NCBI RefSeq assembly: GCF_027533845.1
Contig: NZ_JAPZVN010000002.1
Span: forward strand, 186,001-250,000
Length of the DNA: 64,000 bases
From: Streptomyces sp. RPT161
Lineage (GTDB): Bacteria > Actinomycetota > Actinomycetes > Streptomycetales > Streptomycetaceae
Direction of reading: 5' to 3'
The notes beneath the pieces were generated by a model. The model saw nothing but the letters and a program-made list of their open reading frames with translations, was not told where the DNA came from and searched no databases. The position numbers and the translations under genes were made by a program. The first letter of the stretch is position 1; each line of letters opens with the position of its first letter. Below are positions 10,043-11,245 of the stretch, piece after piece.

Positions 10043-11245
10043 ATGACGAACCTGCAGATCGGTCCGCACACCGTGTCGCCGCCCGTGGTGCTCGCACCGA
10101 TGGCCGGGATCACCAACGCGCCGTTCCGCACGCTGTGCCGGGAGTTCGCTGAGGGCGCCGGCTGGGGGGCCGGCTCGCGGCGAAGCCGCGGTGGAACGCG
10201 GCGACTCCCGGGAGATCGCGGCTCCGGGAGCAAGGGGCTGTTCGTCTCCGAGATGATCACCACCCGGGCGCTGGTCGAGCGCAACGAGAAGACCATGCAG
10301 CTGATCCACTTCGACGAGACCGAGCGCCCGCGCTCGATCCAGCTGTACGGCGTCGACCCGGTGACCGTCGGCAAGGCGGTCCGCATGATCGTGGACGAGG
10401 ACCTCGCCGACCACATCGACCTCAACTTCGGCTGCCCGGTGCCCAAGGTGACGCGCAAGGGCGGTGGTTCCGCGCTGCCGTTCAAGCGGCACCTGCTCCG
10501 CGCGATCCTGCGGGAGGCGGTGGGCAACGCCGGAGCGCTGCCGGTGACGATCAAGATGCGCAAGGGCATCGACGACGACCACCTCACCTACCTCGACGCC
10601 GGGCGCATCGCCGTTGAGGAAGGCGTCACCGCGGTCGCGCTGCACGGCCGCACCGCGGCCCAGCACTACGGCGGCACCGCCGACTGGTCGGCCATCGCCC
10701 GGCTGAAGGAGGCCGTCCCGGAGATCCCGGTGCTGGGCAACGGCGACATCTGGTGCGCCGAGGACGCGGTGCGGATGATGCGCGAGACCGGCTGTGACGG
10801 TGTGGTGGTGGGCCGCGGCTGCCTTGGGCGGCCATGGCTGTTCGGCGACCTGGTGGGCGTCTTCGAGGGCGAGGGCGGCAGCGCCCGGCCGACGTTCCGG
10901 GAGGTCGCCGAGGTGATGCGGCGGCACGCCGAACTGCTCGCCGAGTGGCTGGGCGACGAGGAGCGCGGCGTCATCGACTTCCGCAAGCATGTCGCCTGGT
11001 ACACCAAGGGGTTCTCGGTCGGCTCGCAGATGCGCCAGCGGCTGGCCATGTCGTCCTCGCTGGCCGAACTGGACGAGCATCTGAGCGCGTTGGACCTGGA
11101 CCAGCCGTGGCCGGAGGGCGCCGAGGGGCCGCGCGGGCGTACCGCCGGTACCAAGCGGGTTGTGCTGCCGGACGGTTGGCTGAAGGACCCCTACGACTGC
11201 GCGATGGTGAGCGCCGACGCGGAGTTGGACACCTCCGGCGGCTGA
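10043..11245 (+). CDS. dusB: tRNA-dihydrouridine synthase (DusB type) with in-frame insert
   Basis: This FMN enzyme reduces uridine to dihydrouridine in the tRNA D-loop using NADPH. The TIM-barrel landmarks are VVLAPMAGITNAPFRTLCREF (residues 15-35), FVSEMITTRAL, the catalytic-cysteine motif DLNFGCPVPKVTRKGGGSAL, the HGRTAAQHYGGTADW block and the flavin-phosphate site VVVGRGCLGRPWLFG. It has 400 residues. Residues 36-63, between CREF and LFVSEM, form a Gly/Arg/Ser-rich insert where homologues known to me have only a few residues. The insert DNA is built of short palindromes. The rest of the protein looks intact. Start ATG at 10043 follows GAAGGAAAG. Confidence 0.93.
   Translation: MTNLQIGPHTVSPPVVLAPMAGITNAPFRTLCREFAEGAGWGAGSRRSRGGTRRLPGDRGSGSKGLFVSEMITTRALVERNEKTMQLIHFDETERPRSIQLYGVDPVTVGKAVRMIVDEDLADHIDLNFGCPVPKVTRKGGGSALPFKRHLLRAILREAVGNAGALPVTIKMRKGIDDDHLTYLDAGRIAVEEGVTAVALHGRTAAQHYGGTADWSAIARLKEAVPEIPVLGNGDIWCAEDAVRMMRETGCDGVVVGRGCLGRPWLFGDLVGVFEGEGGSARPTFREVAEVMRRHAELLAEWLGDEERGVIDFRKHVAWYTKGFSVGSQMRQRLAMSSSLAELDEHLSALDLDQPWPEGAEGPRGRTAGTKRVVLPDGWLKDPYDCAMVSADAELDTSGG
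10148..10231 (+). repeat. Palindrome-rich in-frame insertion inside dusB
   Basis: This 84-base stretch codes for residues 36-63 of DusB. It contains GCCGGC twice (10157-10162, 10169-10174), CGCGGC/GCCGCG around GAA (10176-10190), CTCCCGGGAG (10205-10214) and GCTCC-G-GGAGC (10221-10231). The frame is kept and no stop occurs. It looks like a small palindromic element that entered the gene, but this rests on my memory of the normal family length here. Confidence 0.5.

Follow-up and report, generated by a model that had tools for sequence, protein, structure and literature searches.

The window, a 64-kb stretch of genome G000 whose positions serve as coordinates throughout, carries a dusB gene interrupted in frame by a palindrome-rich block of 84 bases (Table 1). 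A profile search recognized the encoded protein with TIGR00737 at 359 bits (cutoff 293.3), the insert notwithstanding, and found the PF01207 domain. Translation and alignment confirmed the coordinates and frame that a preliminary description had given for the block. DusB residues 36-63 (10148-10231) take the place of three residues (SGG) of congeners with the frame kept, and the window reads CREF-AEGAGWGAGSRRSRGGTRRLPGDRGSGS-KGLFVSEM compared with CREF-SGG-KGLFVSEM in congeners. The size of the insert needs one correction: the block does span 84 bases, but its last nine (TCCGGGAGC) correspond to TCGGGTGGC and TCGGGCGGC in congeners, leaving a net insertion of 75 bp. DNA matches to G001 and G002 (94-95% identity in the matched pieces) ended at base 10147 and restarted at 10222, and the insert is missing at one exact point in both of these genomes, the other species of the genus that were compared.

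Table 1. The dusB insert and its parts, with two further gene starts discussed in the text. Positions are those of the 64-kb window unless a contig is named.
Feature	Position	Strand	Remarks
dusB, tRNA-dihydrouridine synthase B, 400 aa	10043-11245	+	Frame open through the insert; TIGR00737, PF01207
Net insertion, 75 bp = 25 codons	10148-10222	+	Relative to congeners G001, G002 and Streptomyces sp. ICBB 8177 (L014)
Left part	10148-10173	+	22 of 26 bases as in the L096 dusB insert: GCTGAGGGCGCCGGCTGGGGGGCCGG
Inverted repeat GCCGGC...GCCGGC	10157-10174	+	Read in the sequence; paired in RNA and DNA folds
Enlarged centre, 33 nt compared with 9 nt in L096	10174-10206	+	Alignment with L096
Hairpin CGCGGC-GAA-GCCGCG inside the enlarged centre	10176-10190	+	
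Right part CCCGGGAGATCGCGGC	10207-10222	+	15 of 16 bases as in the L096 insert
TCCGGGAGC (Ser-Gly-Ser) in place of relatives' Ser-Gly-Gly	10223-10231	+	Three differences from G002
gmk start of G000, L264 (L260-L272 series)	C63:341713-342006		MSDAVPRGETPEPPAKQPR
Start of unnamed protein, L139 (also L153, L144, L229)	G000:C74:55487-55520		MTAFSRGAAPGTP...

All of the palindromes named in the preliminary description were found: GCCGGC at 10157 and 10169, CGCGGC/GCCGCG at 10176-10190, CTCCCGGGAG at 10205-10214 and GCTCC/GGAGC at 10221-10231. Its wording that the block consists almost wholly of palindromes was somewhat strong, but their cover does exceed that of shuffled sequence, at 0.62 against a shuffle mean of 0.19 (arms of at least 5, loop of at most 8), a value reached by 2 of 500 shuffles and 3 of 1,279 window tiles. 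With arms of 6 the cover was 0.36, reached by 6 of 500 shuffles and 13 of 1,279 tiles, and with arms of 7 it fell to 0. Folding energy was rejected as proof of palindromy, since the z values for RNA (-1.29 for 84 nt, -0.23 for 75 nt) and DNA (-0.58 and -1.03, respectively) lie within the shuffle range and are unremarkable for such GC-rich DNA.

A structure model of the window DusB (mean pLDDT 67.9, pTM 0.72; five models ranging from 54.6 to 67.9) aligned with E. coli DusB 6ei9 over 298 residues (Z 27.0, rmsd 3.4). In the model, residues 40-65 have pLDDT below 50 and lie between a helix (25-36) and a strand (67-73); eight other stretches also fall below 50, and the insert loop is therefore not exceptional in its low confidence. 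The helix-to-strand loops of such barrels point away from the active face, which makes it plausible, on this model, that the DusB loop tolerates the insert.

Inserts occur at the same codon in other dusB genes. The link is short in 73 of 80 named dusB loci, bearing out the earlier view that it is normally compact, and an insert lies at or beside the point in the other seven (L015, L016, L017, L018, L041, L087 and L090), in a set biased by the use of one search peptide taken from the insert. Across 394 Streptomycetaceae genomes, at least 16 (the window's own counted) carry an in-frame insert at this point; this is a floor, inserts having been confirmed in 16 of the 16 top rows that matched a query running through the insert. 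The net lengths of 27, 42, 45, 48, 51, 54, 66, 75, 81 and 162 bp are all multiples of three, in a retrieval that required an in-frame match, so that frame alone is no free statistic. No broken gene was found among the 117 dusB entries examined, repeats of one place included. The inserts start directly after CREF or its variant in all alleles except L015/L109, one of three identical filled pairs (with L017/L094 and L041/L098). In an alignment of 37 DusBs, insertions of at least nine residues were found at this junction alone (8 of 37); the 36 proteins other than the window's were picked from the 80 named loci with all seven filled ones included, and filled forms are therefore over-represented. 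The site is thus not peculiar to the window species, and the loop is not conserved in most related DusBs. These alignments mark the codon boundary as a hotspot of insertion in the dusB genes of Streptomycetaceae. Four short-form genes (L064, L082, L092 and L023) read FSEGKG, FSAGKG or FSDGKG instead of FSGGKG, which could be scars of lost inserts.

The inserts of two of these genes, L096 and L097, contain CGGCTGGGGGTCCGGGGGTCG-CCCCCGGGAGATCGCAGC with one base varied, and relatives of this core are dispersed outside dusB. Of 12 genomes searched, 9 held such relatives at E 0.001 or better; G228 (the source of the L096 insert), G260 and G084 held only weaker ones. With a shorter core pattern, 40 matches were obtained in 13 of the 25 family genomes, six of them in G000, with none in 16 genomes outside Streptomycetaceae and none with the reversed control pattern. 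A stricter pattern gave eight matches in 7 of 150 family genomes (control, 0) and no match in the window's own genome. In this sample the repeat is therefore limited to the family, and most of its dispersed copies are intergenic. The copies scored below number 57, from 51 distinct places. Left out were L137, L201 and L205, each from an array or place already represented by a scored copy, together with seven weak hits (L135, L145, L146, L147, L208, L209 and L210); L146, L147, L208 and L209 (E 0.005 to 0.07) lie in coding frames by the first coding test described below. The 84-base unit itself did not prove to be repeated, being single-copy in G000 with partial hits only (best E 8.4e-5). The open frame that holds the strongest of them (80% over 53 bases) is, to judge from its reading, that of an aldo/keto reductase. 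As six of the seven own-genome hits examined besides dusB (L002-L008) are in coding frames, these hits were counted as chance.

We compared the dusB inserts with 27 dispersed copies, which had been gathered by likeness to the L096 insert and hence favour L096, not the window. Six inserts (L096, L017, L018, L095, L041 and L100) beat all 300 shuffles. For the window insert, none of 300 shuffles reached the mean score and three reached the best score, and 1 of 300 other window pieces matched the copies as well; the L016 insert behaved similarly (1 and 2 of 300 shuffles). L104 matched on best score only, and L015, L087, L099, L102, L103, L106 and L107 did not match the 27 copies. The window insert (75 nt) could be aligned from end to end with the L096 insert (51 nt). 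Its alignment with the L016 insert covers most of its length and is about as good; the L016 centre is partly similar and also has a GCGGC/GCCGC hairpin. None of 1,000 dinucleotide shuffles scored as high against L096, L097 or L016, which rank as the top three among 16 inserts; for the other 13, between 13 and 992 of 1,000 shuffles matched the window insert as well. Several dispersed copies have a right end (GGGAGATCGCAGC) similar to the right part of the window insert (CCCGGGAGATCGCGGC). As a match the window copy is diverged, and it looks like the dispersed repeat with an enlarged centre. By core and right end, the likeness to the Streptomycetaceae hairpin repeat is weak for the window taken alone and strong for the six other dusB inserts. 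The L103 type was considered as a second dispersed repeat and rejected, dusB being its sole site in its five carriers. Together with the seven unmatched inserts, this indicates that some of the loop inserts arose otherwise.

The dispersed repeat also lies in frame in two other genes. A first coding test placed none of the 57 copies in an open coding frame, but it recovered only three of seven dusB controls; a better test recovered all seven, and also flagged four or five of the seven chance hits L002-L008. Individual reading confined to the flagged frames and the gmk hits placed 8 of the 57 in coding sequence: L217, L222, L227 and L235 in gmk, and L139, L144, L153 and L229 in a gene for an unnamed conserved protein that has no Pfam or NCBIfam match. 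These copies rule out dusB as the sole coding host. In both genes the repeat occupies the first codons, in the other orientation. The guanylate kinase (PF00625, TIGR03263) has a compact start in G004, G005, G010, G013 and G015, with 18 nt (MSERPR, MTERPR or MTHRPR) before LTVLSG, and a long one of 54-57 nt in G000, G001, G002, G007, G011 and G014. The upstream sequence (GATAATCG...CATG) and the start codon are alike in the two forms. Each of the long gmk starts matched the core better than all 500 shuffles, as did each start of the unnamed protein, which was found in four genomes of three genera; these figures are partly so by construction, because most of the copies in the two genes were found by core likeness (the G007 gmk was not a pattern hit). 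The gmk starts of G009 and G008 matched less well (8 and 24 of 500 shuffles), and that of G003, with 27 nt before LTVLSG, had no core match. As read from the compact and long forms, there is an insertion of about 36-39 bp directly behind the gmk start codon. At L144 and L229 the opposite strand reads a gene with MKIAFVGKGGSGKTTLSS.

We conclude that the window insert is probably an in-frame copy of a short GC-rich hairpin repeat that is dispersed in Streptomycetaceae, mostly between genes and in a few coding genes. The repeat would have entered dusB in the inner loop between the first barrel helix and strand 2, as it would have entered the start of guanylate kinase and that of the unnamed protein, and the hairpin centre would later have been enlarged in the window lineage by more inverted-repeat sequence. 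It would be tolerated given a net length that is a multiple of three, a stop-free frame and a loop able to bear 25 extra residues, which are probably disordered. We infer arrival by insertion rather than retention from an ancestor. The insert is presumably translated, the enzyme presumably still works and the loop is likely to be near-neutral.

We built a dusB tree without the insert (111 rows, 107 of them different, 23 filled), in which the nearest row to the window is the empty G002. A set of six rows with the window, G002 and the filled L016 and L106 has 98% support, its inner branching not settled. The tree requires 14 changes of state, at least nine of which are forced by starred branches, and a single clade of filled alleles was rejected (p-AU 1.5e-5 for 23 rows and 8.9e-32 for 15 rows, with groups named after the tree was seen). 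These results count against one old dusB insertion in an ancestor followed by many losses or by homologous exchange of alleles, with the window having kept or received its copy, as does the need for each loss to restore the compact FSGGKG. The change counts themselves cannot tell gain from loss. Taken as a whole, the flanks of both the window and L018 resemble an empty relative more closely than they do filled alleles from other clades, which also speaks against such a history, and the flank comparison revealed no exchange tract from another filled allele around the window insert; only the bases right after it stand out, with three differences from G002 in 12. L095 fits the old insertion better, its flanks being about as close to the filled L018 as to empty relatives, and the flanks of L017 and L041 are nearest to filled members of their own clades. 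The resemblance of the window centre to that of L016, in the same six-row set, is likewise in its favour. So is the left end of the inserts: 10 of 20 distinct filled alleles, of differing types, share exactly GCCGAAGGCG, most others have variants of it, and GAATTCGCCGAAGGCG has at least seven matches in the 394 genomes, with four in dusB among the matches listed. As this left end is specific to dusB and absent from the dispersed repeat, one old insertion followed by losses or by exchange of alleles keeps some weight, and we consider it unlikely. One dusB in the tree, L083, comes from a record named Microtetraspora glauca NRRL B-3735 but falls among Streptomyces; the strain is perhaps mislabelled.

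More doubtful still is ordinary loop expansion, in which slippage in GC-rich sequence, together with local duplication, would have produced the insert in a surface loop that tolerates it, with palindromes arising from composition and codon use. Some of the other inserts have this character: those of L090/L107/L108 and L102/L103/L105 appear to be copied from a local unit (GCCGGAGGCGAA), no dispersal was seen for the L103 type, and the L087 insert is rich in Pro, Gly and Ala. The folding of the window insert, within the range of shuffles, would suit this origin too, whereas its palindrome cover exceeds that of shuffles and window tiles. The insert also matches those of L096 and L016 and, more weakly, the dispersed repeat, and the same repeat lies in frame in gmk. 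An assembly artefact or a broken gene is very improbable: GC-rich hairpins are hard to sequence, but the frame is open over 400 aa with a TIGR00737 score above the cutoff, and separate assemblies of other species have inserts at the same codon. There is equally little to commend an action of the hairpin in the mRNA, by regulation or by ribosome bypassing of the segment, instead of as peptide; the segment is palindrome-rich, but its folding is unexceptional, an Rfam search gave no match, and the ten net lengths, within the in-frame retrieval, are all multiples of three.

At G000:C52:674769-675519 (L239/L241), the final codons and stop of a gene (LELTGKELRS*) are present three times, with a hairpin in each of the two gaps, and the next gene appears to begin on the upstream gene's stop. 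The same site (L242-L245) has one hairpin in G001 and a single empty gene end in G002, G007 and G025. On this comparison, a dispersed copy has moved within the genus. Among the scored copies, 11 of 27 in one set and 15 of 30 in another, with six places common to the two, are flanked by direct repeats of at least 12 bases, a length unreached by any of 100 or 60 random points at the same locus, which suggests insertion with long target duplication at the dispersed copies. In dusB there is no clear target duplication, just an AEG.../SGG... resemblance that is too diverged to prove one; perhaps a short duplication converted FSGGKG to FAEG..-hairpin-..SGGKG. Immediately before the insert, CCGGGAGTTCGC (10138-10149) matches CCGGGAGATCGC (10208-10219), near its right end, at 11 of 12 bases, 70 bases apart. 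The right end of the repeat thus resembles the dusB target, and this likeness may help to explain the hotspot.

A gene end of the form ~LNNRPRFTTAR..P* has hairpins and a copied gene end in L252, L253, L255 and L256 (G002, G000, G014 and G105), that is, in four genomes of three genera, and is recurrent like dusB; at this site G001 (L254) has a copied end with only a remnant between. At L199/L211 (G022:C12:82822-82861), a gene end of 22 codons and its stop stand on both sides of the hairpin, and ten codons differ between the copies, all synonymously, as if from two functional alleles. Tandem arrays of hairpin and host piece, with periods of about 58, 90 and 81 bp, occur at L129 (G001:C49:21789-21931), L198/L205 (G105:C22) and L223/L230 (G014), and in the arrays read whole (G000, G105 and G014) host pieces number one more than hairpins. 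A REP-type transposase was considered as the mover and rejected for G000, which has no Y1 transposase (PF01797); among the 12 genomes, seven others also lack this family and four have it.

A broader proposal, which we put forward tentatively and hold to be somewhat short of an even chance, is that Streptomycetaceae carry an undescribed mobile hairpin repeat of about 40-60 nt, often at gene junctions. Its target duplications would be unusually long, at about 12 to 60 nt or more, and would often repeat the final codons and stop of the gene upstream, leaving n hairpins between n+1 gene ends; the repeat would have become protein in several housekeeping genes, at one dusB codon boundary in several lineages and at the gmk start, with a mover that is not of the Y1 type in G000. 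A repeat linked to copied gene ends in this way would give access to a so far unknown mechanism of DNA movement. A literature search over titles and abstract openings, most subscription papers being outside its scope, found neither the repeat nor any Streptomyces DusB insert described. In the part of PMC1590033 that was available, Streptomyces is named once, in the reference list.

Mycobacterial interspersed repetitive units are short repeats at gene junctions that preserve stop and start codons, a description that also suits many of the dispersed copies here. In REP elements, as far as the main text of PMC3733652 describes them, short hairpins are mostly intergenic and some are intragenic, as is the case here; Streptomyces and Actinobacteria are not named in that main text. 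The GTAG and CGTC superfamilies of REP elements are served by RAYT transposases, whereas both tags are absent from either strand of 10148-10231, G000 has no PF01797 transposase, and many dispersed copies here have long flanking duplications. The 5′ part of a dus gene is also the insertion target of dus-associated integrative islands, on the available account (PMC4482086); those islands bear an integrase and supply an alternative 5′ end, whereas the dusB insert has 75 bp, is gene-less and is read through.

The best-known coding palindromic elements are those of AT-rich intracellular bacteria. The likeness to Rickettsia palindromic elements seen in the preliminary description holds in that an actinomycete housekeeping gene has an in-frame palindrome-rich insert and a related repeat is in frame elsewhere; it does not extend to the 84-base unit, which is single-copy and carries no GTAG/CGTC tag. 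According to the part of PMC2229807 available, Rickettsia palindromic elements are 105-146 bp long and occur not only between genes but also, seemingly tolerated, as in-frame parts of conserved protein genes; 19 reading frames have such intragenic copies. Both systems have a palindrome-rich insert in frame in a conserved gene (here dusB), both have gmk as a host, and both have copies in several protein genes, those here being of the dispersed core (in dusB, gmk and the unnamed protein) and not of the 84-base unit. They differ in that only relatives of the core are dispersed here, in length (75 bp net in dusB and about 36-39 bp in gmk), in the number of genes (three found here) and in the actinomycete hosts. 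In soil actinomycetes, a GC-rich counterpart that lies in frame in both dusB and gmk shows how repeats can become protein, and its filled and empty alleles are a natural series for testing the cost of such insertions. We suggest that the repeat behaves as Rickettsia palindromic elements do, although it is not a member of their family, and is a variant of the in-gene palindromic repeats.
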